This document shows positions 1 through 15,667 of a DNA stretch of 50,210 nt, in pieces. The number at the start of each line of letters is the position of its first letter. Position 1 is the stretch's first letter. The stretch lies in the NCBI GenBank assembly GCA_031179215.1, contig JAPSIA010000005.1:1-50210 (forward strand). Direction: 5' to 3'. The translations under genes were made by a program, and so were the position numbers. The notes below the pieces were generated by a model. That model had not been told where the DNA came from. It did no database searches and saw nothing but the letters and a program-made list of their open reading frames with translations. This DNA is from Agrococcus sp. (GTDB taxonomy: Bacteria > Actinomycetota > Actinomycetes > Actinomycetales > Microbacteriaceae).

Positions 1-1214
<1,214 letters not shown>

Positions 1215-1222
1215 GCACGGCT

Positions 1223-1258
1223 CGAGGGGCCCGGCTGCGAGCGCGGCCGGGCCCCTCG
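1223..1258 (+). terminator. Hairpin terminator after isocitrate dehydrogenase
   Basis: A 13-bp perfect stem (arms 1223-1235 and 1246-1258, GC-rich, loop of 10) begins 9 nt after the stop codon at 1214. There is no long T-run, as is common in high-GC actinobacteria. A weaker GC-rich hairpin follows near 1274-1290. Confidence 0.75.
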
Positions 1259-1312
1259 CCGTCCCCGGGGGTCCCGGCGCAGCGGCGCCGGGGCGGCCGG
1301 GCCCTCGCCGCT

Positions 1313-1387
1313 CCGGAGGATCCCCGGCGGAGCGGCACCGCGGCGGGATAGTCCATGCGAGGCCGCGCTCAGCCGGGGATCCTCCGG
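1313..1387 (-). repeat. 75-bp palindromic repeat, copy A
   Basis: An imperfect palindrome of exactly 75 bp with outer arms CCGGAGGATCCCCGGC and its complement. Near its centre is the asymmetric word GGACTATCC (minus strand, 1354-1346). Two more copies, at 2274-2348 and 15268-15342, have the same length, and ACTATCC sits at the same offset (35-41) from the left end in all three. Copy A points opposite to copy B, and the DUF559 gene lies between them. Its left-facing arm encodes the last codons and stop of that gene. Confidence 0.8.
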
Positions 1388-2220
1388 CGGCGCGGGAGCC
1401 GGTGGCCGCCCGCGCGCACGATCGCGAGGATGTCGCGCTCGATCTCCTCCCACTCGTCGTGGATCTGGCGGTAGCTCACCCGCAGGACGAGGAAGCCGCG
1501 CGCGGCGAGCCTGCGGTCGCGGCGCCGGTCGCGCTCGTAGGCCGCGGCATCCGCGTGGTGCTCGCGGCTGTCGCACTCGATCACGAGCCGGTCGCCGATC
1601 AGCGCGTCGACCCGCACGCCCTCCATGACGCGCACCTGGATGCGCGTAGCGATGCGCAGCGATCGCAGGCGCAACCGCACCATCGACTCCGTGCCGGACT
1701 CAGCTCGCTCGTCGGCTCGCTCGAGCAGCCCGCGCACGCGCATCGGCGCGCTCCGCATCCAGTCCTCGAGCTGCTCGCTGGTCGCCAGGCGGCGGTGGAG
1801 CAGCGAGTCGATCACCACCACGATCTCCTCGTCGCTGCCGCACCGCAGCGCGCAGCGGAAGGCGAGCTCGAGGCCGTCGACCGCGCTCCGCACGGGCGGT
1901 TGCGCGCCGTACGGCCGGCACCGCCGCGGCCCGCCGCGCCTTCCCCGATGCTCCGCGAAGCGCCGGTGCACTCCCTTGCCCTCCGGCACCCACGCACCGT
2001 GCAGCCGCAGCGCGCTGAAGCAGGAGACGCAGCCGCCCGCTGCCACGGCAGCGAGCGCTGCCGCATCCGGCTGCGAGCCGGCGAACCACCCAGGTCGCAC
2101 GCGGCGCAGAGCTCCACGGCGCACCGCGGACTCGATCTGCCACTTCGTCCACCCGCCGGCCATGAGCTGCAGGGTCGTCAGGATGCCGAGCTGGGTCGCG
2201 AGCGGGTCCACGCGCGGCAC
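1369..2220 (-). CDS. DUF559 / PD-(D/E)XK-like endonuclease-domain protein with N-terminal winged-helix-like domain
   Basis: The C-terminal part (about residues 195-270) looks like the DUF559/Vsr-like nuclease fold: VDALIGDRLVIECD supplies a D205...E215-x-D217 pattern. It is followed by YERDRRRDRRLAARG and the strand FLVLRVSYRQI. Residues 1-60 (ATQLGILTTLQLMAGGW...ALRRVRPGWF) resemble the AbiEi-type helix-turn-helix often found ahead of DUF559 domains. The start is taken as GTG at 2220 (GTG at 2211 is also possible); codons farther upstream run through repeat copy B and look unlike protein. The gene lies between two inverted copies of a 75-bp palindromic repeat, and its final residues RRIPG and the stop are inside copy A. 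The biological role of such stand-alone proteins is not settled; nuclease activity is inferred. Confidence 0.8.
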   Translation of the reverse strand: MPRVDPLATQLGILTTLQLMAGGWTKWQIESAVRRGALRRVRPGWFAGSQPDAAALAAVAAGGCVSCFSALRLHGAWVPEGKGVHRRFAEHRGRRGGPRRCRPYGAQPPVRSAVDGLELAFRCALRCGSDEEIVVVIDSLLHRRLATSEQLEDWMRSAPMRVRGLLERADERAESGTESMVRLRLRSLRIATRIQVRVMEGVRVDALIGDRLVIECDSREHHADAAAYERDRRRDRRLAARGFLVLRVSYRQIHDEWEEIERDILAIVRAGGHRLPRRRRIPG

Positions 2221-2273
2221 CGTGGCACAGCGCTGGCCCGCGGCGCGGCGGGACGGACGCGAGCTGTGGACGA

Positions 2274-2348
2274 CCGGAGGATTCCCGGTTGAGCACGCGC
2301 TCGACGGCACTATCCGCACTCCTCCGCGCTCCGGCCGGGATCCTCCGG
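2274..2348 (+). repeat. 75-bp palindromic repeat, copy B
   Basis: Same 75-bp family as 1313-1387 but in opposite orientation: left arm CCGGAGGATTCCCGG, central ACTATCC at 2309-2315, right arm GCCGGGATCCTCCGG. It lies 53 bp upstream of the DUF559 start, so copies A and B flank that gene like terminal inverted repeats. Confidence 0.8.
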
Positions 2349-2384
2349 CCACCTCCCGCGGGAGACCTCCGCCCCCGGTCTGGC

Positions 2385-3197
2385 CTAGGTGAGGTCGTCG
2401 TGCTCGCCGGTGACCCACGCGATGTGGCGAGCTGCCGAGCGCGCGACGGCCCCGGGCCCCTCCTCGACGAGCTGACCGGGGATGTTGCCGTAGAGGCGGC
2501 GGAAGCGCAGGCTCGCGGCCTGGTCGGCGAGCCGCCACACGACGCCCGCCGAGAGCGGGATGTTGTTCGGGTAGGAGCGCATGAAGGCTACGCTCGCCCG
2601 GTCGGGCTTCGGCTGCATCGTGTCACCGGCGAGCAGGGAGCCGTCGCCCTCGCTCCCCTGCTCCCACAGCGCGACCGCGGCGCCCGGGAAGTGCCCGCCG
2701 AAGCGGATGATGCGCACGCCTGGCAGCGGCGCGATCTCGTCGTCCCACAACTCGATGCGCTCGTGCGGGCGCTGGATCCAGGTCGCGTCGCGCGCGTTGA
2801 CGAGCACGCGCGCGTCGAGCGCATCCGCCCACGCGCACTGCACGCCGAACATGTGCGGGTGCGACGCGGCGATCACCGCGAGCCCGCCGAGCTCGCGCAC
2901 CTGACCGACGGCGTCGTCGGTGATCGCGCCGAGCGGATCCCACAGCAGGTTGCCCGCGTCGGTCTGCACGAGCAGCGACCGCTGGCCGATGCCGACCGCG
3001 GGCTCGGAGGTCAGCGCCCAGAGGCGAGGCTCGACCTCGACGACGTCGATGCGGAGCCCGTCTCGGGCGAGCACGTCGGTGCTCGTCCACACCTGCCCCT
3101 GCTGCGGCACCCACTGCCGCTCATCGGCGCAGATGGGGCAGGTCTCGGGCAGCGGCTCGGCCGACTCGACGCCGCACGTGGCGCACAGGATCGTCAC
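2385..3197 (-). CDS. MBL-fold metallo-hydrolase-like protein with N-terminal zinc ribbon
   Basis: 270 residues from a GTG start (VTILCATCG). An N-terminal CxxC...CxxC pair (C5, C8, C20, C23) suggests a small zinc ribbon. The rest looks like a metallo-beta-lactamase fold: a strand-rich N half, ASHPHMFG at the position of the usual HxHxDH metal motif, FGGHFPG for the next His, and LLAGDTMQ for the bridging Asp. The first motif lacks the canonical Asp and second-pair His, so metal binding and catalysis may be altered. GGAG precedes the start. The neighbour upstream is a small acidic protein on the same strand. Substrate unknown. Confidence 0.75.
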   Translation of the reverse strand: MTILCATCGVESAEPLPETCPICADERQWVPQQGQVWTSTDVLARDGLRIDVVEVEPRLWALTSEPAVGIGQRSLLVQTDAGNLLWDPLGAITDDAVGQVRELGGLAVIAASHPHMFGVQCAWADALDARVLVNARDATWIQRPHERIELWDDEIAPLPGVRIIRFGGHFPGAAVALWEQGSEGDGSLLAGDTMQPKPDRASVAFMRSYPNNIPLSAGVVWRLADQAASLRFRRLYGNIPGQLVEEGPGAVARSAARHIAWVTGEHDDLT

Positions 3198-3233
3198 GCG
3201 ACGGCTCCGGCGCGGAGCAGCGCTCGGGGCACG

Positions 3234-3416
3234 TCAGCGCCCGTCGACGTCGGGCTCGGCCGCCTCGTCCTCCTCGGGCTCGAACGTCGAGGGCTCGTCG
3301 GTCGTCGTGGCGCCCAGTCCGTCGGGGTCGGCCGGGATCGTGCCGTCCTCGCCCAGCCCGCCCGGCTTCCTCGTGCCGTCGGCGCCGTCGTGGTCGTGGC
3401 CGTCGTGGTGGCTCAT
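3234..3416 (-). CDS. Small acidic hydrophilic protein of unknown function
   Basis: A 60-residue protein opening with a His/Asp-rich stretch (MSHHDGHDHDGADG) and ending in an acidic tail (EPEEDEAAEPDVDGR). It has no membrane segment or recognised domain and is probably disordered. A clear ribosome binding site (GAGGAGG, about 5 nt before ATG at 3416) supports translation. It sits between sucD and the MBL-fold gene on the same strand, after the sucD terminator. The histidine cluster could bind metal, but this is a guess. Confidence 0.6.
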   Translation of the reverse strand: MSHHDGHDHDGADGTRKPGGLGEDGTIPADPDGLGATTTDEPSTFEPEEDEAAEPDVDGR

Positions 3417-3487
3417 GGTGTCCTCCTCGCTGCGGTCGATCGCGTGGCGACCACCCTAGCCCCCGAATCCGATGGCCCCCAGGACGA

Positions 3488-3517
3488 CGAGGGCCCCGGC
3501 CGAAGCCGGGGCCCTCG
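3488..3517 (-). terminator. Terminator of the sucCD operon
   Basis: A perfect 13-bp stem (3488-3500 / 3505-3517) with loop CGAA lies 14 nt past the sucD stop codon. It is the most compact kind of high-GC intrinsic hairpin. Confidence 0.8.
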
Positions 3518-3531
3518 ATCGGACGGATCGC

Positions 3532-4431
3532 TCAGAGCGACTCGATGATCTCCCGCATGAGGCGAGCGGTCTCGGTCGGCGTCTTGCCGACCTTGACGCC
3601 GGCGGCCTCGAGCGCTGCCTGCTTCGCCTGAGCCGTGCCGGAGGAGCCGGAGACGATGGCGCCGGCGTGGCCCATCGTCTTGCCCTCGGGCGCGGTGAAG
3701 CCCGCGACGTAGCCGACGACCGGCTTCGTCACGTGCGCCTTGATGTAGTCGGCAGCGCGCTCCTCGGCGTCGCCGCCGATCTCGCCGATCATCACGATCG
3801 CCTTCGTCTCGGGGTCGGCCTCGAAGGCCTCGAGCGCGTCGATGTGCGTCGTGCCGATGATCGGGTCGCCGCCGATGCCGATGGCCGTCGAGAAGCCGAG
3901 GTCGCGCAGCTCGTACATCATCTGGTAGGTCAGCGTGCCCGACTTCGAGACGAGGCCGATCGGGCCCTTGCCCGTGATGTTCGCGGGCGTGATGCCGACG
4001 AGCGACTCCCCCGGCGTGATGATGCCCGGGCAGTTCGGGCCGATGATGCGGGTCGTGCCCTTGGCCTTCGCGTGCGCCCAGAACTCGGCGGAGTCCTGCA
4101 CGGGGATGCCCTCGGTGATCACGACGAGCAGGCCGATGCCCGCGTCGACGGCCTCGATGACCGCATCCTTGGCGAAGGCCGGGGGCACGAACACGATCGA
4201 CGTGTCGGCGCCGGTCTCGGCCATCGCCTCGGCGACAGAGCCGAAGACGGGCAGCTCGACCTCGGAGCCGTCCTGCGCGACGTGCGAGACGGTCGTGCCG
4301 GCCTTGCGCGCGTTGACGCCGCCGACGATCTGCGTGCCCGCCGCGAGCATCCGCGCCGTGTGCTTCGAGCCCTCGCCGCCGGTGATGCCCTGGACGATGA
4401 CCTTGCTGTCCTTGTTGAGGTAGATCGACAT
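3532..4431 (-). CDS. sucD: Succinate-CoA ligase, alpha subunit
   Basis: 299 residues starting [18 protein letters not shown]. With SucC it interconverts succinyl-CoA and succinate with substrate-level phosphorylation in the TCA cycle. Visible family signatures are the CoA-binding Rossmann N terminus ([16 protein letters not shown]), [12 protein letters not shown], and the phosphohistidine loop [17 protein letters not shown] near residue 245. Length matches the family. The ATG at 4431 follows the sucC stop by 11 nt, so the two are co-translated from one transcript, which ends at the hairpin at 3488-3517. Confidence 0.97.
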
Positions 4432-4442
4432 GTCCTGCTCCC

Positions 4443-5609
4443 TTACGCCGCAGCCAGCTCGGCGGCCTTGTCGGCGGCCTCGTCCATCGTGTCGACGACC
4501 GTCACCAGCGGGTGGCCGGCGTCGGCGAGGATCCTGCGACCCTCCTCGACGTTGTTGCCGTCGAGGCGCACGACGAGCGGCTTCGAGGCCTCGTCGCCGA
4601 GGATCTCGAGCGCCTTGACGATGCCGTTGGCGACGGCGTCGCACGCGGTGATGCCGCCGAAGACGTTGACGAAGACGCTCTTGACGTCCTGGTCGTGGAG
4701 GATGACGTCGAGGCCGGCGGCCATGACCTCGGCCGAGGCGCCGCCGCCGATGTCGAGGAAGTTCGCGGGCTTGACGCCGCCGTGGCGCTCGCCGGCGTAC
4801 GCGACGACGTCGAGCGTCGACATGACGAGGCCCGCGCCGTTGCCGATGATGCCGACCTGGCCGTCGAGCTTGACGTAGTTGAGGTCGGACTCCTTGGCCT
4901 TCGCCTCGAGCGGGTCGGTGGCAGCCTTGTCCTCGAGCGCCGCGTGGCCCTCCTGGCGGAAGGCGGCGTTCTCGTCGAGCGTGATCTTGCCGTCGAGCGC
5001 GATGACGTCGCCGCCCTCGGTGAGCACGAGCGGGTTCACCTCGACGAGCGTGGCGTCCTCCTCGACGAAGACGCGGTAGAGCTGCACGAGCACGGGCGCG
5101 ACCTTGGCGACGAGCTCCTCGGGGAAGCGCGCGGCGCGCACGATCTCCTCGGCCTTCGCCTCGTCGATGCCGCGAGCGGGGTCGACCTCGACCTTCGCGA
5201 GCGCCTCGGGGCGCTCCTCGGCGAGCTGCTCGATCTCCATGCCGCCCTCGTACGAGCACATGGCGAGGTACGAGCGGTTCGCGCGGTCGAGCAGCACCGA
5301 GAAGTAGTACTCCTCCTCGATGGCGGCGCCCTCGGCCACCATCACGCGGTGCACCGTGTGCCCCTTGATGTCGAGGCCGAGGATGGCGCTCGCCGCGTCC
5401 TTCGCCTCTGCGGGGCTCTTGGCGAGCTTCACGCCGCCCGCCTTGCCGCGTCCGCCGGTCTTGACCTGTGCCTTCACGACGACGACACCGCCACCGAGCT
5501 CCGCGGCTGCTGCCTCGGCCTGCTCGGGGGTGTCGGCGACGATGCCTCGCAGCACGGGGACCCCGTGCTGCTCGAACAGGTCCCTTGCCTGGTACTCGTA
5601 GAGATCCAC
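4443..5609 (-). CDS. sucC: Succinate-CoA ligase (ADP-forming), beta subunit
   Basis: 388 residues with the ATP-grasp architecture: [20 protein letters not shown] at the N terminus, [18 protein letters not shown] for nucleotide binding, [11 protein letters not shown] for Mg binding, and [15 protein letters not shown] plus DIGGGAS in the C-terminal ligase domain. The start is GTG at 5609, matching the usual family N terminus; in-frame sequence upstream does not look like the family. It is the first gene of the sucCD operon, transcribed leftward. A TAGGCT box at 5665-5660 is a plausible -10, with about 45 nt of leader. Confidence 0.97.
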
Positions 5610-5659
5610 GCGCCATCCAATCAATGTGTGGTGAGTGTGGTGGGGGATTCGCCGCGACA

Positions 5660-5665
5660 AGCCTA
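5660..5665 (-). promoter_or_regulatory. Putative -10 box of sucCD
   Basis: TAGGCT on the minus strand fits the actinobacterial TANNNT -10 consensus and lies 50 nt before the sucC GTG. No convincing -35 element is visible. Confidence 0.4.
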
Positions 5666-5803
5666 GTCGTCCCCCGAGTGCGCCCCTCGCCGGTTTCGGC
5701 TCGCCGAAGCGCCAAGATTCGGCGTTCTTGCGGGTTTCGCCCGAGCCTCGCCTTGCTTGCGGAGCCGGGGCGCCCCGCCGAGCATGGAACGCAGGAGGAC
5801 ACC

Positions 5804-6526
5804 ATGGATCCCGCTCTGCACCGCCGTCCCGACCTGCCGCCGCCGGTTGAGTCGATGACATCCCGGCTCAACTGGCTGCGCGCCGGCGTGCTCGGCGCGA
5901 ACGACGGCATCGTGTCGACGTCCGCGCTCATGGTGGGCGTCGCGGGCGCCGGCACCTCGCTCGCCGGCGTGCTCACCGCCGGCATCGCGGCGCTCGTCGC
6001 GGGCGCGTTCTCGATGGCCGTGGGCGAGTACGTCTCCGTCTCGTCGCAGCGCGACAGCGAGCGGGCGGCGATCGAGCGCGAGGTCGCCCTGCTCGAGGCG
6101 AACCCCGACGGGCAGATCGACCAGCTCGCGCACATGTACGAGGAGCGGGGGCTGCAGCCGCGGACCGCGCACCAGGTCGCGGTCGAGCTCACCGAGGCGG
6201 ATCCCCTGCGCGCGCACCTCGATGTCGAGTACAAGCTCGACCCCGACGACCTCAACAACCCGTGGGCGGCCGCGGCCTCGTCGGCGGTCGCGTTCTCGCT
6301 CGGCTCGCTCATCCCGCTCCTGGCGGCCCTCGTCGCGCCCGCGGCGTGGATGCCGTGGCCGATCGTCGTCGCGACGGTCGTCGCGCTGCTGCTCACGGGC
6401 GTCGTCTCGGCGCGCATCGGCGCCTCGAGCAAGCGAGCGGCGACCTTCCGCGTGCTCGCGGGCGGCATCGTCGCGCTCGCCGCGACGTGGCTCATCGGCA
6501 CGCTCCTCGGCTCGCCCGTGCACTAG
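5804..6526 (+). CDS. VIT1/CCC1-family iron/manganese transporter
   Basis: 240-residue integral membrane protein. N-terminal [25 protein letters not shown] is the hallmark first helix of the VIT/CCC1 family. [19 protein letters not shown] starts the cytoplasmic metal-binding helical region, followed by hydrophobic helices in the last third (about residues 160-180, 185-205 and 215-235). Members move Fe2+ or Mn2+ across the membrane; direction and metal here are inferred. ATG at 5804 is preceded by a strong GCAGGAGG site. It is transcribed divergently from sucC and is followed by a small membrane protein gene 35 nt downstream. Confidence 0.88.
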
Positions 6527-6561
6527 GAGCGCCGCGCTGGCCGGCATGGCAGGCTGGAGCC

Positions 6562-6732
6562 ATGCAGGAGCAGGAGCACGACCACGTGCCGCCGGAGCTC
6601 GATCCCCGGTTCGACCGCTACGACGACGGCAGGCCGCCGCGCACGCTGCGCCGGCGCCTGCAGCCGGTCATCTGGCTCGTGGGCGCCGTCACCCTGGTCG
6701 CGCTGGTGCTGCTCGTGACCCCCGGCCTCTAG
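6562..6732 (+). CDS. Small single-span membrane protein of unknown function
   Basis: 56 residues: an acidic N-terminal half (QEQEHDHVPPELDPRFDRYDD), a basic patch (RTLRRRLQP), then one C-terminal hydrophobic helix (VIWLVGAVTLVALVLLVTPGL). This makes it a tail-anchored-like protein with its N terminus in the cytosol. It follows the VIT gene in the same direction and could share its transcript. No domain recognised. Confidence 0.6.
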   Translation: MQEQEHDHVPPELDPRFDRYDDGRPPRTLRRRLQPVIWLVGAVTLVALVLLVTPGL

Positions 6733-6742
6733 CCAGCAGGTC

Positions 6743-6801
6743 CAACGGCCATTCGGCCGGGATGTGCCTCTCGCGTGCACATCGGGCGCACATGGCCGTT
6801 G
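6743..6801. terminator. Nested inverted repeat between convergent genes
   Basis: Outer arms CAACGGCCAT (6743-6752) and ATGGCCGTTG (6792-6801) enclose an inner pair GATGTGC (6761-6767) / GCACATC (6777-6783). The structure sits between a rightward small gene and the leftward pcrA. It could terminate either transcript, though the unusual two-tier shape may have another role. The rest of 6802-6884 shows nothing recognisable. Confidence 0.45.
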
Positions 6802-6884
6802 AGTGCCTTGCGTCAGCGCGGGAGCAGGGGCGTTGCATCAGCGGTGCGCGGGTGCGACGCGCTCGTGCGGCGCGCGGCGCCGGC

Positions 6885-9263
6885 TCAGAGCTTCTCGATC
6901 GGCGCGATCTTGACGAGCAGGCGCTTGCGCCCCACGCCGTCGAAGAGCACCTCGGCGACGCGCTTCGCCTCGGCGCCCGTGATCTGCTGCACCCGCCCCT
7001 CGCCGAAGTCCTTGTGGCGGATGCGGTCACCGGGCGCGAGCACCATGGTGCTGTTGTCGCGCACCTCGGTGATGGTGTTCGCGAACTCGCGCTTCGGCCC
7101 CTTCGGCAGCGGCTTCGGGGTGTCGCGGTAGCCGCGCACGAAGGACTCGCGCGGCTCGTCGCGCCAGCGACCCACCGCCCGCTGCGCCGAGGGAGCGCGC
7201 ATCGCGGTCGGCGGCGTGCGCCACTCGATGAGGTCCGCCGGGATCTCCTCGAGGAACCGGCTGGGAGCTGCGGGGCTCACCTCGCCGAACTGGGCGCGCG
7301 TCATGGCGAGCGAGAGGTGCAGGCGCTTGCGCGCGCGCGTGATGCCGACGTAGAACAGCCGTCGCTCCTCCGCGGGGCCGCCCGGCTCCATCGCCGCGAT
7401 GCGGTGCGGCAGCAGCTCCTCCTCGATGCCGGTGATGAAGACGGCGTCGAACTCGAGCCCCTTCGCGGTGTGCAGGGTCATGAGTGAGACCTGGCCGCCC
7501 GAGTCGTCGAGCTCGTCGGCTGCGGCGACGAGCGCCGTCTCGGTGAGGAAGTCGACGAGCGTGCCGCCGGGGTTCTGCCGCCGGAACTCCCGCGTCACGG
7601 CGACGAGCTCCTCGACGTTCTCGAGCCGCGCGGCATCCTGCGGATCGGGTGAGCGCCGCAGCTGATCGGTGTAGCCCGAGCGGCTCAGCAGCTCGCGCAG
7701 CACCTCTCCCGGGTCGGCGTCGGGCCTGGCGCTCCACTCATCGAGCAGCGCGGCGAGGTCCTTGATGGCGCCGGCGACCTTCGGGCCGAGCGCGATCTCG
7801 TCGACGCGCCGCATCGCATCCCGCAGCGTGATCTGGTGCTCGTCGGCGAACGCCTGCAGCGCCGCCTCGGTCGCGGGGCCGATGCCGCGCTTGGGCACGT
7901 TCATGATGCGTCGCAGGCTGAGGGGGTCTGCGGGGTTGGCGACCGTGATGAGGTACGCCATCGCGTCCTTGATCTCGGCACGCTCGTAGAACTTCGTGCC
8001 GCCGATGACGCGGTACGGGATGGCGGTGCGGATGAGCACCTCCTCGAGCGCGCGCGTCTGCGCGTTCGTGCGGTAGAAGACGGCGATGTCGCTGTAGGCC
8101 ATGCCGCCGCTCGTGAGCTCGACGATCTCGTCGGCGACGAACTGCGCCTCGTCGTGGCCCGAGTATCCGGTGAAGCCGACGATCTTCGCGCCGTCGCCGG
8201 AGTCGGTCCAGAGGTTCTTCGCGCGTCGGTCGAAGTTGTTGCCGATCACGGCGTTCGCGGCGGAGAGGATCGTCTGCGTCGAGCGGTAGTTCTGCTCGAG
8301 CATGATGACGCGCGCGCCGGGGAAGTCGCGCTCGAAGTCGGTGATGTTGCGGATGTCGGCGCCGCGGAAGGCGTAGATCGACTGGTCGGAGTCGCCGACG
8401 ACGGTGAGCGACGCGCCGGGCAGGTCGCTGCGCAGATCGGGGAGGTCGGCGCGCGTGACCGGCTGCGTGAGCTCCTGGATGAGGGCGTACTGCGCGGCGT
8501 TCGTGTCCTGGTACTCGTCGACGAGGATGTGGCGGAAGCGCTTGCGGTAGAGCGCCGCGACGCGCGGGAAGGCCCGCAGCAGGAAGACGGTCTGCGAGAT
8601 GAGGTCGTCGAAGTCGAACGCGTTCGCTCGGCGCAGCTCGCGGTCGTAGTCGCGCCAGAGCTCGAGGAACGCCGCGTCGAGCGGGTTCTCGAGGCTCGCG
8701 GTGCGCGCCCACGAGTCGACGTCGTGCAGCTCGTTCTTCGCCTTGGAGATCCGGGCGGCGACGGAGCCGGGCGTGAGCCCCTGGATGTCGGCGCCGCGCT
8801 CCTTGATGAGCCGCTTGAGCAGCGCGCGCACGTCGCCCGCGTCGTAGATCGTGAAGGCCTGCCGGAAGCCGAACTCCTCGGCCTCGCGCCGCAGGATGCG
8901 CACGCACGCGGAGTGGAACGTCGAGATCCACATGCCGCGCGACTCCTCGCCGATGAGGTGCTCGACGCGCTCGCGCATCTCGGCGGCGGCCTTGTTCGTG
9001 AAGGTGATGGCGAGGATCTGGCTCGGCCACGCCTCACGGGTGGCGAGCAGGCCCGCGATGCGGTGGGTGAGCACGCGCGTCTTGCCGGAGCCGGCGCCCG
9101 CGACGATCAGGAGCGCGGGACCGCGGTGCTCGACCGCCTCGCGCTGCGGCGGGTTGAGGCCGGCGAGCAGGTGCTCGGGGATCGTGTCGCCGCGGGGACC
9201 GATCGGCGTCGGTCGCTGCACGTCGCCGAAGCCCTCGTCGCCCAGCCCCCACAAGTCGCTCAT
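6885..9263 (-). CDS. pcrA: ATP-dependent DNA helicase PcrA/UvrD
   Basis: 792-residue SF1A helicase that unwinds DNA 3'-5' in repair and replication-conflict resolution. Visible motifs in order: Q-motif LNPPQREAV (about 36), Walker A AGAGSGKT (about 55-62), Walker B VDEYQDTNAAQ, GDSDQSIYAFRGAD, QNYRST, LMTLHTAKGLEFDAVFITG and YVGITRARKRLHLS. The C terminus ends in the Tudor-like domain typical of PcrA (GDRIRHKDFGEGRV...KIAPIEKL). The start at 9263 (MSDLWGLGDEGFGD) is supported by a TAGAAT box exactly 7 nt before the ATG, which suggests a leaderless transcript. Confidence 0.96.
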   Translation of the reverse strand: MSDLWGLGDEGFGDVQRPTPIGPRGDTIPEHLLAGLNPPQREAVEHRGPALLIVAGAGSGKTRVLTHRIAGLLATREAWPSQILAITFTNKAAAEMRERVEHLIGEESRGMWISTFHSACVRILRREAEEFGFRQAFTIYDAGDVRALLKRLIKERGADIQGLTPGSVAARISKAKNELHDVDSWARTASLENPLDAAFLELWRDYDRELRRANAFDFDDLISQTVFLLRAFPRVAALYRKRFRHILVDEYQDTNAAQYALIQELTQPVTRADLPDLRSDLPGASLTVVGDSDQSIYAFRGADIRNITDFERDFPGARVIMLEQNYRSTQTILSAANAVIGNNFDRRAKNLWTDSGDGAKIVGFTGYSGHDEAQFVADEIVELTSGGMAYSDIAVFYRTNAQTRALEEVLIRTAIPYRVIGGTKFYERAEIKDAMAYLITVANPADPLSLRRIMNVPKRGIGPATEAALQAFADEHQITLRDAMRRVDEIALGPKVAGAIKDLAALLDEWSARPDADPGEVLRELLSRSGYTDQLRRSPDPQDAARLENVEELVAVTREFRRQNPGGTLVDFLTETALVAAADELDDSGGQVSLMTLHTAKGLEFDAVFITGIEEELLPHRIAAMEPGGPAEERRLFYVGITRARKRLHLSLAMTRAQFGEVSPAAPSRFLEEIPADLIEWRTPPTAMRAPSAQRAVGRWRDEPRESFVRGYRDTPKPLPKGPKREFANTITEVRDNSTMVLAPGDRIRHKDFGEGRVQQITGAEAKRVAEVLFDGVGRKRLLVKIAPIEKL

Positions 9264-9270
9264 TCGTTCG

Positions 9271-9276
9271 ATTCTA
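9271..9276 (-). promoter_or_regulatory. -10 box of pcrA, leaderless configuration
   Basis: TAGAAT on the minus strand, then 7 nt, then the ATG of pcrA. There is no Shine-Dalgarno sequence before the ATG. Confidence 0.55.
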
Positions 9277-9317
9277 CGCGGCGGCACCCACGCGCCTCGC
9301 CGCCCGAGGCGCGCGGA

Positions 9318-9357
9318 CGCCGGTCGAGGAGCGCGCGCGAGCGCCCCTCGACCGGCG
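9318..9357 (-). terminator. Terminator of the lamin-tail protein gene
   Basis: A 12-bp perfect stem (9318-9329 / 9346-9357) with a GC-rich 16-nt loop starts 9 nt after the stop of the leftward gene ending at 9367. Confidence 0.7.
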
Positions 9358-9366
9358 CCAGGAGGA

Positions 9367-11403
9367 CTACTCGGCCGTCGCCCCTCGGCGGCGCGCGAGC
9401 GCGAGGCTCGCGGCGGCCAGCAGCAGCAGGATCGCGCCGACCAGGACGACGGGAGCCTCCGTGCTCGTGCTCGGGAGCGTCGGCTCGCCGCCGGCGTCCG
9501 CGCCGCCCTGGCCATCGCCCGGCTCGATCGGCGTGCCCGGCGCGGTCTCGGTCGGCGCCGGCTCGGTCGGCGCGGGCTCGGTCGGCGCGGGCGTCTCGAT
9601 CACGTCGGCGCACTCGTCGCCGGCCGAGACGCGCAGCGAGACGCCGTCGTGCGCGGTGTCCGAGATCCACGCGACCGCGGGCGCGGCCGTCGCATCCGTC
9701 TCGCACCAGTCGATCGCGAGGCCCTCGTTCGTGTAGCCGGCGTCCATCGTCGAGGGGGCGTGCACGGCGCGCTGCGCGGTCAGGCGGCCGTCGACGAAGG
9801 CGAGCTCGGCGTGGCGGTTGTCGCACGCCTCGTCGCACAGCGCCCACAGCGCGTTGCCGCCCGCCTGCCAGTCGAGGCCCATGACGACCGCGAGGGCATC
9901 GCTCGGCGCAGCCGACTGCAGGATCGTGAGCTCGCCGGTCGCCTCGAGCACGGCGAGGTGGATGAGACCGGTCTGCTCCACGGCGAACGCGACGATGCCG
10001 CCGAAGTGCTCGCCGTAGGAGGCGGGGTCGTAGCGGGCGCCCGTCTCGTCGACGACACCGAGGCGCAGGGCGTCGGCGTCGGAGATCCACTCGATGGCCT
10101 CCGGGCCGAGGTTCGCGCCGAGCTCGCCGAGCGCCGAGGAGACGTTCCACTCGTGCGTCGTGGTCGCGCGGCCGTCGGCGCCGAGCTCGACGCGCAGGAT
10201 CGACGGGCGGCTCGTGCTCTTGGCCGCGTTGTCGCGCTCGGTCGCGAGGAGGATCGCGCCGTCGCCGGCGACCGACAGGCCCTCGGCGTCGGGCTGGCCC
10301 GAGCCGTCCGGGTACGTCGGCACCCAGGACCTGGCGATCGACCACTGCCCGTCAGCGCCGGCCGCGAGCTCGAAGATCTCGGCGTTGTCGTTGTTGACCG
10401 CGAAGAGCGTGCCGTCGGCGGCGTGATCGAGGCCGGACATGTCGTCGCCCCACGTGCCCGGGGCCACGGCAGGGCGCACGTCGTCGCGGAACGGCCACGC
10501 GTCGGCCTCGACGACGGGCTCCTCGACGGGCCCGCAGTCGTTCGCCATCTCGAAGGTCGCGCTGGCGGCGTCGACGAAGTCGCCCGTCATGTCGGCGCAG
10601 CGCGCCCACGTCACGGCCGCGTGCGCCTCCCAGCCGAACTCGTCGACGACGGTGCCCTGCGCGTCGCGGAGGGTGACGGTGTCGCTGCCGCCGAGGCCGA
10701 AGTCGGTGTTGTAGGCGGTGCCGTCGGTGATGATCGCCCGGTAGCCGCCCGACTCGATCGTCGTGCCCTCTGGCAGCACGATGGGCTCGTGCTCGGGGTC
10801 GCCGTCGACGATCGACCAGCCGGAGAGGTCGACGGTGCTGACCGTGTCGGTGTTCGCGAGCTCGACCCAGTCGCCGCGCGCGTCGCCGTTGGACTCGACC
10901 TCGTTGATCACGACGGGCGAAGCGGCAGCGCGCGTGACGTTCGCCTCGCCGGGCGTCGGCTCGGTCGCGACGAACGCGCCCGTGCCGTCGGGCACCCGGC
11001 CCTCGCTCGAGACGTGCGCGCTCCAGCGGTGCTCGGCCACGAGCGTGCCCGTCGCGGTGAAGATGCGCACCGCATCCTCCTTGCCGAGGCCCATGCCGAC
11101 GAGCGTGTCGGGCTCGAAGGCGACGATCGCACCGGGCTCGATCACGGTGCCGGCTGGGAAGGTCACGAAGTCGGCGTCGGGCTCGTCCTTGTCGTCGCGG
11201 GCGATCCAGCCCGAGATGTCCACGGGCGCTGCGCCGACGTTCGTGAGCTCGAAGAAGTCGGGCGCGTCGGTCGCGCTCGTCGACTGCACCTCGTTGATGA
11301 CGATGTCGGTGTCGGCCGCGACGGCGGCGGGGGCGGTGAGGAGGGTGACCGCGAGCGCCGCCGGGATGGCGGCTGCGAGCGCGGCGGTGCTGCGTCGGCG
11401 CAT
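9367..11403 (-). CDS. Cell-wall-anchored lamin-tail-domain protein with beta-propeller-like region
   Basis: 678-residue exported protein. An N-terminal signal peptide (MRRRSTAALAAAIPAALAVT...AVAA) is followed by two lamin-tail domains (INEVQSTSATDAPDFFELTNVG near residue 40 and INEVESNGDARGDWVELANT near 175). Next comes a long region with repeated short strands (DMSGLDHAADGTLFAVNND, DAEGLSVAGDGAILLATERD) resembling esterase-like/SdiA-regulated propellers. A Thr/Pro/Glu linker then leads to the sorting tail: LPSTS near residue 643, a hydrophobic helix and RRR. The LPSTS pentapeptide departs from LPxTG, so the sortase class is uncertain. ATG at 11403 has an AAGGA site upstream. Substrate unknown. 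Confidence 0.82.
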   Translation of the reverse strand: MRRRSTAALAAAIPAALAVTLLTAPAAVAADTDIVINEVQSTSATDAPDFFELTNVGAAPVDISGWIARDDKDEPDADFVTFPAGTVIEPGAIVAFEPDTLVGMGLGKEDAVRIFTATGTLVAEHRWSAHVSSEGRVPDGTGAFVATEPTPGEANVTRAAASPVVINEVESNGDARGDWVELANTDTVSTVDLSGWSIVDGDPEHEPIVLPEGTTIESGGYRAIITDGTAYNTDFGLGGSDTVTLRDAQGTVVDEFGWEAHAAVTWARCADMTGDFVDAASATFEMANDCGPVEEPVVEADAWPFRDDVRPAVAPGTWGDDMSGLDHAADGTLFAVNNDNAEIFELAAGADGQWSIARSWVPTYPDGSGQPDAEGLSVAGDGAILLATERDNAAKSTSRPSILRVELGADGRATTTHEWNVSSALGELGANLGPEAIEWISDADALRLGVVDETGARYDPASYGEHFGGIVAFAVEQTGLIHLAVLEATGELTILQSAAPSDALAVVMGLDWQAGGNALWALCDEACDNRHAELAFVDGRLTAQRAVHAPSTMDAGYTNEGLAIDWCETDATAAPAVAWISDTAHDGVSLRVSAGDECADVIETPAPTEPAPTEPAPTETAPGTPIEPGDGQGGADAGGEPTLPSTSTEAPVVLVGAILLLLAAASLALARRRGATAE

Positions 11404-11518
11404 GAGGATCCTTCGCTGTGAGGTTCCCCTCAGCAAAGGCGACGCAGGCGTCCGGCCGGTGCCGTTCGGCGAACAGCGGGTGAACGGTGCGTGGCCGTTC
11501 GCCGCCGGGCGTCCCCCG

Positions 11519-12493
11519 CTACGGCTCGAGCCGCCGCCAGAGGTCTGGGTGGTCGAGGAAGACCGCCTCGAGGTCGAGGTCCGCGACCATCGACCACTCG
11601 GTCTGCCAGTCGCCCCACGCGGCGGGATGCTCGCCGAGCCGGTGCTCGGGCTCGAGGAAGGCGTTCTCCGGTCGCAGCGTCCAGGTGATGGTGCCGAGCC
11701 CAGCGGCGCGAGCCCGCTCCGCGAGGTCGCTCGTGCGCAGGGCGCCGCCCTCCCGCGAGAACAGCACCGCCTTGTCGACGCTGATGGCGTCGACGCACCT
11801 CGCGAGCTGCGCGAGCCCAGCGTCGGTGCGCTGGTCCGCGTACGTGGGGGCGGATGCGTGACCCGCGGCGACGAGGTCGGGCGCCGTGCCGCCGGCGGCC
11901 ATGAGGTAGATGAGCCGCGCCTCGACGCCGCGCTCGCGCACCCCGTGCAGCACGGTCTCCTCGAACGACTCGATCGCGAGCCGCCCCGGCGCCTCCCACG
12001 CGGTGCCGGACACCGCATCCGCGAGCAGCGCGTCGAGCGGGAGGCCGATGGACGCGAAGTGGGTCGCGTGCTTGAGCTCGGCGACGACGTCGAGCCCGGT
12101 CTCGTCGGCGATCGCGAGCAGGTCGGTGAAGCGCAGCACGCCCTCGGCGCCGTCGCGGCGGGCGCTCGCCGGGCGCAGCTGCGGGAGCCGCTCGCGAGCG
12201 CGCAGCGACGCGACCTCCGACCACGTGAGGTCCTCGACGAACCAGCCGGTCAGCTCGACGCCGTCGATCGTCGCGGTGCGTCGGCGATCGGCGAGCTCCG
12301 GGCGCCGTGCGATGTCGGTCGTCTCGCTCAGCTCGTTGTCGTGGCGCACGACGAGCACGCCGTCGCGCGTGGCGACGAGGTCGGGCTCGACCGCGTGCGC
12401 GCCAAGGCTCGCGGCGAGCCGGACGGCGGTCTCGGTGTGCTCGGGCGCCCAGCCGGAGGCGCCTCGGTGGGCGATGATGCGCGATGCGTGCAC
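11519..12493 (-). CDS. Glycerophosphodiester phosphodiesterase family protein
   Basis: 324 residues with a TIM-barrel GDPD domain: HASRIIAHRGASGWAPEHT carries the catalytic His-Arg pair, and AVEPDLVATRDGVLVVRHD holds the metal-binding Glu-x-Asp and second His. VAELKHAT matches the conserved ExK strand. It would hydrolyse glycerophosphodiesters to glycerol-3-phosphate and an alcohol. No signal peptide is visible, so it is probably cytosolic. The GTG at 12493 has no ribosome binding site but lies 6 nt after a TAGCCT box, so the transcript is probably leaderless. The 115 nt between this gene and the lamin-tail gene contain no gene. Confidence 0.9.
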   Translation of the reverse strand: MHASRIIAHRGASGWAPEHTETAVRLAASLGAHAVEPDLVATRDGVLVVRHDNELSETTDIARRPELADRRRTATIDGVELTGWFVEDLTWSEVASLRARERLPQLRPASARRDGAEGVLRFTDLLAIADETGLDVVAELKHATHFASIGLPLDALLADAVSGTAWEAPGRLAIESFEETVLHGVRERGVEARLIYLMAAGGTAPDLVAAGHASAPTYADQRTDAGLAQLARCVDAISVDKAVLFSREGGALRTSDLAERARAAGLGTITWTLRPENAFLEPEHRLGEHPAAWGDWQTEWSMVADLDLEAVFLDHPDLWRRLEP

Positions 12494-12499
12494 CGAGCC

Positions 12500-12505
12500 A
12501 GGCTA
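12500..12505 (-). promoter_or_regulatory. -10 box of the GDPD gene, leaderless configuration
   Basis: TAGCCT on the minus strand, 6 nt before the GTG start at 12493; no Shine-Dalgarno sequence. Confidence 0.5.
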
Positions 12506-12567
12506 TGCGGCCGGCTCGCCGTGCGCGAACACCGGCGCGAGCACAGCGAAATCTGGGGATCGCTCGG

Positions 12568-12573
12568 TAGTCT
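12568..12573 (+). promoter_or_regulatory. Putative -10 box of the BI-1 family gene
   Basis: TAGTCT fits TANNNT and would give a leader of about 45 nt that contains the GACAGGAGC ribosome binding site before the TTG start at 12627. Confidence 0.4.
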
Positions 12574-12626
12574 GTCGACAGTCCGCCCCGTGGCGGCCGT
12601 GAACCTTCCCGACAGGAGCAACTCCC

Positions 12627-13595
12627 TTGGCAGGCAACCCGGCGTTCCGCAACTCGCCCGCGTTCACCGAGAACCCCCAGCGCGCCGCGCAGGCGGCGCC
12701 CGGTGGGCAGCAGGTCCCCTACGGCCAGGCGCCCTACGGCCAGGCGCCCTACGGCCAGGCTCCGCAGTACGGCGGCGCTCCCTACGGTCAGCCGCAGCAG
12801 TACGGCGGCGCGCCCTACGGGCAGCCCGGCGTGCCCACGCCGGAGCAGCTGAACCAGCAGTTCCAGGCGCCCGCGGCCGGCCCGCTCGAGACGGAGCGAC
12901 TCTCGTACGACGGCGTGATCATGAAGACGGGGCTCACGCTCGGCGTCACGGCGCTGGGCTTCGTGGTGACGCTCGCGATGTACTTCATGGGCAACGCGCC
13001 GCTGTTCTTCGGGCTGACCTGGGGCGGCGCGATCGTCGGCTTCGTGCTCGCGCTCGTCAACATCTTCAAGAAGGAGCCGAGCCCGGCGCTCGTGCTCGCG
13101 TACGGTGCGGCGCAAGGACTCTTCCTCGGCGGCATCTCGGCCTCGATCGAGTTCGGCTGGAACCTCCCCGGCATCATCTTCCAGGCGCTGCTCGCGACGG
13201 CGTGCGTGTTCGGCGTGACGCTCGCGGGCTACGCGTTCCGCGTCTTCCGCACGTCGCCGAAGCTCAACAAGATCTTCTTCATCGCGATCATCGGCTACGC
13301 CGCCTTCTCGCTCGTCAACTTCGTCCTGATGCTGACCGGCGTGAACCAGGATCCGTGGGGCATGCGCTCCATGGAGGTCTTCGGCATCCCGCTCGGACTG
13401 ATCCTCGGTGCCCTCGCCGTGCTGCTGGGCGCCTACTCCCTCGTGATGGACTTCGAGGGCATCGAGCTCGGCGTCAAGCGCGGCGTGCACAAGAAGTACG
13501 GCTGGTCGGCGGCCTTCGGCCTGGTCATGACGATCATCTGGCTCTACGTCGAGATCCTGCGGATCATCGCGATCCTCCGCGGCGGCAACAACTAG
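12627..13595 (+). CDS. Bax inhibitor-1/YccA family membrane protein with PYGQ-repeat N-terminal tail
   Basis: 322 residues. Residues 1-75 are a disordered tail rich in Pro, Tyr, Gly and Gln with repeated PYGQ units. Residues about 90-320 form seven hydrophobic segments typical of the BI-1-like family, ending IWLYVEILRIIAILRGGNN. The eukaryotic and some bacterial relatives act as membrane calcium-leak or stress-related proteins; the role here is not known. The TTG start at 12627 is chosen because GACAGGAG lies 7 nt upstream and the family-like N terminus MAGNPAFRNSPAF begins there. A strong terminator follows. Confidence 0.9.
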   Translation: MAGNPAFRNSPAFTENPQRAAQAAPGGQQVPYGQAPYGQAPYGQAPQYGGAPYGQPQQYGGAPYGQPGVPTPEQLNQQFQAPAAGPLETERLSYDGVIMKTGLTLGVTALGFVVTLAMYFMGNAPLFFGLTWGGAIVGFVLALVNIFKKEPSPALVLAYGAAQGLFLGGISASIEFGWNLPGIIFQALLATACVFGVTLAGYAFRVFRTSPKLNKIFFIAIIGYAAFSLVNFVLMLTGVNQDPWGMRSMEVFGIPLGLILGALAVLLGAYSLVMDFEGIELGVKRGVHKKYGWSAAFGLVMTIIWLYVEILRIIAILRGGNN

Positions 13596-13612
13596 TCCCC
13601 GCCACTGCGCAC

Positions 13613-13646
13613 CGAAGGGGCCCCGGCAGCAGCCGGGGCCCCTTCG
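13613..13646. terminator. Strong bidirectional hairpin terminator
   Basis: A 15-bp perfect stem (13613-13627 / 13632-13646) with loop AGCA lies between the convergent BI-1 gene and the VOC protein gene, 17 nt past the BI-1 stop. Confidence 0.85.
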
Positions 13647-13653
13647 CCGTGCC

Positions 13654-14052
13654 TCACCGGTCTCGCGAGGAGAGCACGCAGAACTCGTTGCCGTCGATGT
13701 CCGCGAGCACCGTCCACGTCGCATCCGCGGCCTGGCCGACGTCGATGCGACGGGCGCCGAGCGCCTCGAGCCGGGCGATCTCGGCCTCCCGGTCGTCGCT
13801 CGAGTGCGGCGCGAGGTCCATGTGGATGCGGTTCTTCGACCGCTTCTCGTGCTCGACCGGCACGAAGACGAGCCCTGCCGGGAACTGGTGGAACGTGAGC
13901 GTGCCGGCGAGCTCCTCCGCCCACTTCGGGATGACGACGACCTCGTGATCGGTCTCGAAGACGATCTGCCAGTCGAGCGCGTCGCGCCACCAGGCGGCGA
14001 GCCTGCGGTGATCGGTGGATTCGATCACGTTCGAGTACCAGCGCAGCGCCAT
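13654..14052 (-). CDS. VOC-superfamily (glyoxalase-like) protein
   Basis: 132 residues in a single two-module VOC fold: NVIESTDHRRLAAWWRDALDW at the N terminus and a second module around NRIHMDLAPHSSDDREAEIARLEALGARRID ending VLADIDGNEFCVLSS. The last segment holds the conserved Glu of the metal or substrate site. Such proteins include isomerases, dioxygenases and antibiotic-binding proteins, so substrate cannot be told from sequence. It is a single-gene unit, convergent with the BI-1 gene; the start ATG at 14052 follows a GGAGG-like site. Confidence 0.85.
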   Translation of the reverse strand: MALRWYSNVIESTDHRRLAAWWRDALDWQIVFETDHEVVVIPKWAEELAGTLTFHQFPAGLVFVPVEHEKRSKNRIHMDLAPHSSDDREAEIARLEALGARRIDVGQAADATWTVLADIDGNEFCVLSSRDR

Positions 14053-14099
14053 CGCGGCCTCCTTCGTCGGGGTGCCCTCACGCTACGCGAGGCCGCTGA

Positions 14100-14139
14100 C
14101 GCAGACGACCCCCGCCCGTGCGGGCGGGGGTCGTCTGCG
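14100..14139. terminator. Perfect palindromic terminator after the BASS transporter gene
   Basis: A 19-bp uninterrupted stem (14100-14118 / 14121-14139) with a 2-nt centre lies 10 nt beyond the stop of the leftward transporter gene ending at 14150. It also sits upstream of the VOC gene start, insulating the two. Confidence 0.8.
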
Positions 14140-14149
14140 CGCGACGGGG

Positions 14150-15133
14150 TCAGCTGACGACCGCGTCCTCGGTCGCGGCATGCTGCGGGGCGTCCTGCGG
14201 CGGGCGCCGCGACCAGAAGGAGGCGAGCAGCGCGCCCGAGATGTTGTGCCACACGGAGAAGATCGCCGCCGGCAGCGCGGCCTCGGGAGAGAAGTGCGTC
14301 TTCGCGAGGCCCGCGGCGAGGCCGGAGTTCTGCATGCCGACCTCGATCGCGACCGCGCGCCGCGCGCTCGTGTCGAGCCCCACCGCCTTCGCGGCGAGGA
14401 AGCCCAAGCCGTAGCCGACGCCGTTGTGGAGGATGACGACGAGCGCCACGAGGAGGCCCACCGACAGGATGGTCGCGGCCGAGCCCGCGACGACCGCGAG
14501 CACGACGAGCGTGATGCCGGTGACCGACACGAGCGGCAGCCAGGGCAGGATCGCCTGCACGAGCTTCGGCAGCAGCATCCGCAGCACGACGCCCGCGATC
14601 ACGGGCAGCAGCACGATGAAGATGATCGACTGGAACAGGCCCCAGGCGTCGACCGGCAGGTAGGAGCCCGCGAGCCACAGCACGAGCAGCGGCGTGAGCA
14701 CGGGGGCCAGCAGGGTCGAGGCGGTGGTCATCGCGACCGAGAGGGCGGTGTCGCCCTTGGCGAGGTAGACCATGACGTTCGAGGAGGTGCCGCCGGGGGC
14801 GGAGCCGACGAGCACGACGCCCACGAGCAGCTCGGGCGGCAGCTGGAACGCGGTCGCGAGGCCGATCGCCGTGAGCGGCATGATGACGTACTGCGCGACG
14901 ACGCCGATCGCGAAGGCCTTCGGCTTCCGCGCGATGACGCGGAAGTCGACGGGCTGCAGCGTGAGCCCCATGCCGAGCATGATGATGCCGAGCAGCGTGT
15001 TGATCGCCGGGCCGAGCGGCAGGAAGGCCTGCGGCACGAGGATCGCGACGGCGCCGGCCGCGAGCACGATGAGCGGGAACCAGGTGCCGGCGACGCGCCC
15101 GATGCGCTCGCCGACGGGGGTGGTGCGGGACAT
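14150..15133 (-). CDS. Bile acid:sodium symporter (BASS) family transporter
   Basis: 327-residue polytopic membrane protein with about nine or ten hydrophobic segments. BASS signatures are visible: LPLGPAINTLLGIIMLGMGLTL, the crossover GSAPGGTSSNVMVYLAKGD (about residues 110-130), and the second crossover region AVAIEVGMQNSGLAAGLAKTHF. The family moves organic anions such as keto acids, pantoate or bile acids with sodium; the substrate here is unknown. ATG at 15133 has a perfect GGAGGT site. A 13-bp dyad just upstream (15152-15164) could be an operator. Transcribed alone. Confidence 0.9.
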   Translation of the reverse strand: MSRTTPVGERIGRVAGTWFPLIVLAAGAVAILVPQAFLPLGPAINTLLGIIMLGMGLTLQPVDFRVIARKPKAFAIGVVAQYVIMPLTAIGLATAFQLPPELLVGVVLVGSAPGGTSSNVMVYLAKGDTALSVAMTTASTLLAPVLTPLLVLWLAGSYLPVDAWGLFQSIIFIVLLPVIAGVVLRMLLPKLVQAILPWLPLVSVTGITLVVLAVVAGSAATILSVGLLVALVVILHNGVGYGLGFLAAKAVGLDTSARRAVAIEVGMQNSGLAAGLAKTHFSPEAALPAAIFSVWHNISGALLASFWSRRPPQDAPQHAATEDAVVS

Positions 15134-15151
15134 GTCAGACCTCCAGTGGAT

Positions 15152-15164
15152 GCTGTCTGACAGC
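15152..15164 (-). promoter_or_regulatory. Possible operator dyad upstream of the BASS gene
   Basis: GCTGTCTGACAGC is a perfect 6-1-6 dyad located 19 nt before the transporter start codon, where a repressor would block transcription or ribosome access. It is the only such dyad near this promoter; regulator unknown. Confidence 0.3.
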
Positions 15165-15267
15165 GAACCACATCCCGCATGCCGCTCCGCGCGGCCCCGA
15201 GCCGCTCCGCCGCCGCAGCGCGGGGCACTCTCCCCTGCCTGCCCGCACCTCCGCCAGACCCGCCCGA

Positions 15268-15342
15268 CCGGAGGATCCCCGGCTGAGCGCAGCCCAAGCG
15301 GGACTATCCACGCGTGTCGGCGCTCAGGCGCGAATCCTCCGG
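15268..15342 (+). repeat. 75-bp palindromic repeat, solo copy C
   Basis: Third member of the family found around the DUF559 gene. The left arm CCGGAGGATCCCCGGCTGAG is intact, GGACTATCC lies at 15301-15309, and the right arm is degenerate (GCGCGAATCCTCCGG). It stands alone in a 500-bp region without genes (15160-15667). Confidence 0.8.
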
Positions 15343-15424
15343 GCACCGCGTCGCCGCGGGCCGCTCGTGCGCGCCCAGGCCCGCGCGTCGGGCTGCTCCG
15401 GATCCCTCCCTCGCGGCCGCCCCG

Positions 15425-15522
15425 CCCGCACAACGCAAGCCGCGCGAGGCCGATCCGCGGCGGTAGCGCCGCCAGCCGCTCGTCCGCCGCAGGGGAAGCC
15501 CGCCGGGCTTGCGTTGTGCGGG
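15425..15522. repeat. Spaced 16-bp perfect inverted repeat in a gene-free region
   Basis: CCCGCACAACGCAAGC at 15425-15440 is repeated exactly in inverse orientation at 15507-15522, with a 66-bp GC-rich middle. The enclosed sequence has no credible protein. The layout resembles a small non-autonomous element or a long hairpin; nothing identifies it further. Confidence 0.6.
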
Positions 15523-15666: not shown

Positions 15667-15667
15667 C

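Follow-up and report, generated by a model that had tools for sequence, protein, structure and literature searches.

Bacterial genomes widely contain REP palindromes, repeats whose known enzyme partners are the RAYTs. In the REP/RAYT systems (REPtrons and REPINs) as portrayed in PMC8049555, PMC8266576, and PMC3733652, short extragenic palindromes are dispersed, with two subtypes combined in doublets, copies of the same palindrome enclose the gene of a dedicated enzyme, the palindromes are lineage specific, and copies are more numerous where the gene is present. The REP superfamily CGTC is recorded in PMC3733652 as lacking a dedicated transposase. The EDxHD homing endonuclease I-Bth0305I, which has the solved catalytic domain closest to the protein analyzed here, is described as forming a dimer on target DNA that spans nearly 60 bp (PMC3943268). 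AbiEi antitoxins of type IV toxin-antitoxin systems are reported to autoregulate by binding inverted repeats (PMC7319586), and VsrA of Caulobacter, which belongs to the same nuclease domain family as DUF559 proteins, is described as a predicted mismatch-repair endonuclease (PMC12907096). A literature search covering mostly open papers returned no account of a pairing between DUF559 genes and palindromes; an earlier description is possible.

Here, we present an analysis of a DUF559 gene that lies between two palindromes in Agrococcus sp. The window, i.e., the whole stretch of DNA analyzed, comprises 50,210 nucleotides (assembly GCA_031179215.1, contig JAPSIA010000005.1); its nearest homologues with a species or strain name come from A. 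baldri, A. sp. HG114, and A. terreus. By comparing this locus with DUF559-type loci in 24 Agrococcus genomes and in other actinobacteria, we show that nuclease and palindrome are associated and have co-diverged.

RESULTS

The window locus

The 75-bp imperfect palindromes that a sequence-only reading of the window had reported on both sides of the DUF559 gene lie exactly at 1313..1387 and 2274..2348. The gene between them (1369..2220, minus strand) is assigned as encoding an AbiEi-like winged helix and a DUF559/Vsr-fold nuclease based on Pfam, alignment, structural model, fold match, and reading frame; the protein has 283 aa if translated from the GTG at 2220 or 280 aa from the GTG at 2211. The 3' flanking palindrome (1313..1387) carries the word ACTATCC on the minus strand and overlaps the final codons and the stop of the gene, while the 5' flanking palindrome (2274..2348, plus strand) lies upstream of the gene, with 53 bases separating it from the GTG at 2220. 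Both belong to subfamily a of the type referred to here as R1, and a third, dispersed copy lies between predicted genes at 15268..15342 (plus strand). The left neighbor is the 3' part of icd (15..1214, plus strand), which encodes monomeric isocitrate dehydrogenase, is conserved, and served for site comparison. The right neighbor is a conserved 270-aa gene (2385..3197, minus strand) that adjoins icd in genomes without the unit and has no Pfam match at 1e-5. An Rfam search of positions 1-17000 of the window gave no RNA family match.

Based on ACTATCC, the two palindromes of the window locus are in opposite orientation, as had been proposed; as a rule, this does not hold: of 35 paired loci, 19 had ends that matched best in direct orientation and 16 had ends that matched best in inverted orientation. 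ACTATCC had also been placed at one offset in all copies; this is true for five of the seven closest copies, and the word was not seen in 11 copies read from a second subfamily in the same genome. The picture of a transposon-like unit with terminal inverted repeats is not supported: a transposon with fixed inverted ends is ruled out by the free orientation of the ends, and the palindromes, rather than the gene, disperse.

The window contains two other repeat regions. At 47257-47599, two stretches with a 20-bp period (GAGTGGCGCCTCC.. and its complement) face each other over a short gap; this array is separate from, and unrelated to, the palindromes. At 38770-39145, an imperfect repeat run around GCTGCTGGCCGTAGG probably encodes a repetitive Gln/Tyr/Gly-rich segment.

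Domains and fold of the protein

The window protein matches PF04480 (DUF559) at 29.9 bits (cut-off 20.6), and its matches to MTES_1575 and AbiEi_4 are beneath the respective Pfam cut-offs. Among 36 aligned homologues, which reach down to 27% identity with the window protein, MTES_1575 matches all 36, DUF559 matches 35, and AbiEi_4 (PF13338) matches 13; an AbiEi model matches the N-terminal half of at least 24, and the PADLOC 'HEase' model matches 18. E175, D202, E212, D214, H219, and D228 are among the residues invariant in 36/36 proteins of the alignment; from the alignment rather than from a superposition, we read the invariant E/D/H/D residues as the putative EDxHD active-site residues.

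The AlphaFold model of the window protein has a mean pLDDT of 94. The top nine Foldseek matches include the I-Bth0305I catalytic domain (3r3p; TM-score 0.76 by target length, E-value 0.002), an AbiEi antitoxin (6y8q), the endonuclease-like 3hrl, and Vsr; the E-values are modest (0.002-0.03, none below 0.001), and two mitoribosomal entries are also among these nine. A profile search gave sequence-level matches to 3hrl (1e-8) and 3r3p (2e-5). From the Pfam, Foldseek, and profile matches, the protein is predicted to consist of a Vsr-fold nuclease and a winged-helix DNA-binding half.

Paired palindromes at DUF559-type loci

We collected 90 DUF559-type loci from 24 Agrococcus genomes, i.e., all 91 search rows, with three row pairs merged, and two weak Pfam matches from the genome of the window (own genome; G000). 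Both sides of each locus were scanned for a palindrome with no sequence specified beforehand, the pair score combined palindromy and mutual similarity, and a strict threshold of 60 was applied. Matched palindromes were present on both sides of 38 of the 90 loci, including the window locus with a score of 76, versus 0/204 control ORFs (≥200 codons); none of 1199 control windows reached 60 either, the controls overlapping one another and being drawn from this one genome. The 38/90 is a lower bound, as L083, L085, L103, and L122 score below 60 and yet are paired by model. The 52 loci below the strict score are mostly more distant paralogues; many distant paralogues show no palindromes, and contig ends cut some loci. 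In the own genome, only one of eight loci passes, and two are borderline with scores of 57 and 56. The flanking palindromes are of many unrelated kinds, among them CCGGAGGAT (the window type), CTCAACCGG, CTCAACGTGTGAGG, CTCAACGGAGC, CGTTTCGCAGGCGATC, ACTTCTCGGTC, CTCGATCGGGC, and GAGGATGGATTCGC. The paired palindromes are real and far more widespread than the sequence-only reading had described, encompassing DUF559-type loci across the genus as well as dispersed copies. Chance or low-complexity similarity is ruled out by the DNA search of the genome together with the two sets of controls. L085 and L103 (G021:C3) represent one unit present twice ~208 kb apart with identical scores, in a genome with 8% contamination; this is either a duplication or an assembly artefact.

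DUF559 matches were present in 48 genomes of a family sample of 80 Microbacteriaceae genomes, and 10/28 examined loci from other genera of the family reach 60, with palindromes unlike those of the Agrococcus types. In a phylum-wide sample of 198 genomes, DUF559 matches were present in 51, and 3/29 loci examined reach 60. A clear case is L052 of Janibacter limosus (score 103.9, palindromes 96% identical). The Microbacterium loci L054 and L055 score 55.6 and 43.4, and the paired scan detected no paired palindromes at L051 of Brachybacterium and no matched ones at eight short DUF559 proteins (L339-L346).

Co-divergence of palindromes and proteins

Palindrome and protein distances are correlated over 35 loci (Mantel r 0.775), and none of 5000 permutations gave a value as high (maximum 0.208); L124, L148, and L165, which were read in a wrong or broken frame, were left out. 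In the protein tree, palindrome words group by protein clade, and the palindromes of paralogues that share a genome are unrelated (22 pairs with a mean identity of 0.41). Each protein lineage has its own palindrome, which allows several independent enzyme/palindrome pairs to coexist in one genome.

Anatomy of the palindromes

The palindromes are 61-75 bp long and have the ends CCGGAG../..CTCCGG (R1), CTCAACCGG (R2), and CGTTTCGCAGG (R3); GTAG or CGTC tags at one end are absent from the alignments of these three types. R2 denotes the CTCAACCGG type and R3 the GCAGGCGAT type. In 59 distinct R3 copies taken from the model alignment, the outer word GCAGGCGAT retains its pairs in 55-59 copies and the inner AGGG/CCCT pairs are kept in 57-59, while the arm pairs between them are kept in 19/58 to 48/59. 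The strict outer words suggest that recognition depends on sequence. At three positions, the two R3 subtypes differ by changes on both sides, and with the partial arm pairing, recognition as a hairpin is possible. The R3 subtypes are 67 and 69 bp long and alternate in doublets ~90 bp apart, and G014 has one five-element array of alternating subtypes. Many dispersed copies that we read are located between the ends of convergent genes, which is an informal impression and not a formal count.

Dispersed copies of R1, R2, and R3

A DNA search of the own-genome assembly (2.56 Mb, 88% complete, 231 contigs) gave 11 strand-matches in seven places; the seven closest copies are all 75 bp and align without gaps. 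The R1 covariance model built from these copies gave at least 37 strand-matches at E ≤ 0.01, and 16 further copies were read elsewhere in this genome. All genome-wide copy counts are lower bounds, as 150 candidates were scored per genome. The second subfamily in the own genome (CCGGAGGAGCGGTCGCTCAGCGGC..), of which the 11 copies read are 75 bp long and partly in doublets 138-164 bp apart, is located on G000:C11, C102, C171, and others (L368-L375). The other seven DUF559 loci of this 88% complete assembly had no R1 match, and among the R1 matches listed, only the window's own contig is also among the eight contigs with DUF559 matches.

R1 matches were found in 18/24 Agrococcus genomes. Copies away from the unit are present in 17/17 genomes with a close homologue of the protein (≥245 bits) versus 1/7 without (Fisher 5e-5, species relatedness ignored). 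The exception is G020 (65% complete), with two R1 strand-matches; the other six have none.

For R3, the five genomes with an R3-flanked gene have at least 128, 94, 77, 18, and 4 strand-matches, of which the first three correspond to ~64, 47, and 38 copies if both strands match each copy. The genome with 18 is G003, in which the gene is probably broken because it is read in two frames, and the four matches in G009 are its own two flanks with nothing beyond. Among the other 19 genomes, R3 strand-matches are present in G010 (14), G016 (2), and G023 (2), for which we found no matching gene, and absent from 16. With unit flanks set aside, R3 is present in 4/5 versus 3/19 genomes (Fisher 0.014, species relatedness ignored). 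R2 matches, unit flanks included, are present in 9/9 genomes with an R2-flanked gene and in 7/15 others. Taken together with the 38/90 versus 0/204 loci and the Mantel correlation, the R1 distribution establishes a statistical link between repeat and gene.

A RAYT encoded elsewhere in the genome was considered as the driver and rejected: searching for the Y1/RAYT transposase (PF01797, E ≤ 0.001) gave no match in any of the 24 Agrococcus genomes, and 5/14 control genomes, namely E. coli and four others, did match.

The icd site and turnover of palindromes

Among 23 genomes with icd, 12 have a DUF559 unit at this site, six (G001, G010, G011, G013, G015, and G016) lack it between the same two neighbors, and five have other surroundings. 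All 12 units have a palindrome on the icd side, and 11 have palindromes on both sides (G017 has only one). Thus, DUF559 orthologues without repeats are not the rule at the icd site, although 52/90 loci overall miss the strict score. The presence/absence polymorphism is evident from these six genomes and, as shown below, from dispersed copies that vary between close species.

A lone long palindrome of another type is located behind icd in four of the six gene-free sites (G010, L170; G011, L172; G013, L180; G016, L173), so this space may simply be a preferred landing place to which palindromes are drawn. Lone long palindromes are also found there in three of the five genomes with other surroundings (G005, L190; G007, L189; G008, L187), and the lone palindromes are of several unrelated types. 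Behind icd in G001 and G015, we found no lone palindrome but just a terminator-like hairpin.

For nine of the 12 icd-site units, both ends were placed by model. The arm words of the two ends of one unit are more alike (0.83) than the same end across species (0.68), and 0/5000 re-pairings were as high. Taken singly, the own partner is best in four units and tied in two, and in three, an end from another species is closer.

We sought ten dispersed R3 sites of G007 in G008 and G014, and nine aligned to at least one of them. The R3 copy of L259 is missing in G008; G007 and G008 share that of L261, which G014 lacks; and that of L265 is missing or reduced in G008. At L264, G008 retains a remnant and G014 has the other subtype; L253 is common to all three genomes, G014 having another subtype there. 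G007 has a single element at L249, where G008 has a doublet; at L258, the doublet of G007 corresponds to a single, shortened element in G008. The G008 counterparts of L260 and L266 are degenerate. At L249 and L261, G007 and G008 are far more alike in the flanks than in the palindrome arms. The subtype changes can be explained by differential loss from an ancestral doublet; we favor the alternative that another copy may have overwritten the element. At the R3 sites lacking the element in a relative, the junctions are too diverged to define a clean empty site or a target duplication.

In G010, G011, and G016, we compared 18 loci around R2/R3 copies. Seven of nine sites are common to at least two genomes, with surroundings 89-99.6% identical, so many palindrome insertions are old; for the other two sites, the fetched loci contained no counterpart, though this does not imply absence. 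One R2 site (L234 in G011, L243 in G010) is 99.6% identical over 2 kb, compared with 95% at the other site compared (L233/L242), which suggests that this region was recently transferred. The icd DNA of G010 and G011 is 98% identical, and G011 has no R3 match.

DISCUSSION

In its behavior, the DUF559/palindrome pair resembles a REP/RAYT system, but the enzyme and tag that define such systems are missing: the place of the HUH Y1 transposase is taken by a predicted Vsr-fold metal nuclease that carries an AbiEi-like winged helix, and the palindromes are 61-75 bp long and lack GTAG or CGTC tags. With I-Bth0305I, the protein has in common the catalytic-domain fold, the conserved acidic/His residues, and a similar target length; in contrast to I-Bth0305I, the gene lies between two complete palindromes and not inside the target, if the palindrome is the recognition site, and the same genome retains many target-like copies. 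The likeness to AbiEi antitoxins concerns the N-terminal winged-helix fold and possibly the binding of inverted repeats. Here, however, the C-terminal half is a predicted nuclease domain, the palindromes are genome-wide, and no AbiEii toxin gene was recognized next to the nuclease at the window locus, where the neighbors are icd and the 270-aa gene. Vsr and other DUF559 proteins are related through the nuclease domain, and eight short DUF559 proteins differ in having no matched palindromes by the paired scan.

We suggest, with a probability of roughly 0.58, that the unit is a nuclease-bearing locus of a REP-like palindrome family, in which the predicted nuclease recognizes its own palindrome and drives its copying. 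The palindrome is proposed as the enzyme's target because I-Bth0305I dimerizes on a target of a length similar to that of the 61-75 bp inverted repeat. A single protein combining the AbiEi-like winged helix with the Vsr/I-Bth0305I-fold nuclease would read the palindrome, probably as a dimer; a fixed outer word around a short asymmetric centre would suit a dimer with a winged helix. The enzyme would cut or nick the palindrome at this centre, and host repair would then install or overwrite palindrome copies elsewhere. The nuclease gene would ride in the spacer of a palindrome doublet, of which the two ends stay alike. A nuclease with ~60 target copies in its own genome needs restraint, which counts against this reading; the host may tolerate it by virtue of low expression, nicking only, or structure-specific cutting. 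Also counting against it are the 52 loci below the strict score, the R3-flanked gene of G009 without copies beyond its flanks, the R3 and R2 copies in genomes without the matching gene, the three icd-site units in which the own partner is not the closest, and the possibility that the space behind icd attracts palindromes irrespective of type. Of the sequence-only proposal of a gene product acting on, or spreading with, the palindrome, association, dispersal, and co-divergence are borne out; that the enzyme acts directly on the palindrome is what we infer from them. In its general form, the idea amounts to palindromic mobile sequences driven by a nuclease independently of HUH enzymes: a Vsr/homing-fold enzyme with a winged helix would maintain and spread its own palindrome by repair copying, and many such pairs would co-diverge in Microbacteriaceae and some other actinobacteria. 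We consider the chances of this general form to be even.

Other explanations of the same observations differ in what the palindromes are for. They could be operators, with the AbiEi-like winged helix autoregulating the nuclease gene, the dispersed copies acting as regulatory or decoy sites, and the nuclease serving defence or repair and moving nothing. The reported autoregulation of AbiEi antitoxins through inverted repeats (PMC7319586), the AbiEi matches of the N-terminal half in sequence and structure, the palindrome upstream of the start codon, and the strictly conserved outer words, which suit duplex binding, all speak for operators. We nevertheless regard this as unlikely: a second palindrome is located at the 3' end of the gene, dispersed copies were often read between convergent gene ends (without a formal count), and they reach up to ~64 per genome and form alternating arrays. 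Somewhat less probable still is a free-standing homing endonuclease, in which case the gene would be the mobile unit homing into palindromes, and the dispersed palindromes would be its targets. The Vsr/EDxHD fold and the PADLOC 'HEase' matches fit such an enzyme, as do the presence and absence of the gene at the icd site and the lone palindromes at four of the six gene-free icd sites. Yet both flanking palindromes are complete, arguing that the gene does not interrupt a target; the lone palindromes belong to another type, and three of the four genomes concerned (G010, G011, and G016) lack any R1 match; and the gene-free sites of G001 and G015 have no palindrome.

It is also conceivable, albeit improbable, that the palindromes are REPs moved by another, unrecognized enzyme, and that the DUF559 genes are cargo or stabilizers that settled between them. 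Dispersed, doublet-forming palindromes are typical of REPs, and PMC3733652 reports REP families, of the CGTC type, that have no known enzyme. Against such an enzyme, gene family and palindrome co-diverge over many unrelated palindrome types (in a scan that was seeded from DUF559 genes), the arrangement recurs in other genera, and the 24 genomes have no Y1_Tnp match, this being the one transposase family searched. Finally, we give very little weight to ordinary terminators or hairpins that are similar by accident. The palindromes do lie between genes, often near gene ends, and can fold; however, their lengths and words are fixed per family, matched pairs are absent from the 204 control ORFs, and ordinary terminator-like hairpins stand next to the palindromes at the icd site. 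As a full account, terminators are contradicted by the co-divergence test.

If a nuclease that copies its own palindrome is the correct explanation, DUF559 proteins of this type would constitute a second, unrelated enzyme family with REP-like genomic behavior, i.e., REPs reinvented with homing-endonuclease chemistry, and REP families that lack a RAYT could have such enzymes as their missing partner. A small protein and a defined target would then allow direct tests of how palindromes spread and persist. Moreover, the many natural pairs of a nuclease and a long target, with co-diverged specificities, would be useful for understanding protein-DNA recognition.
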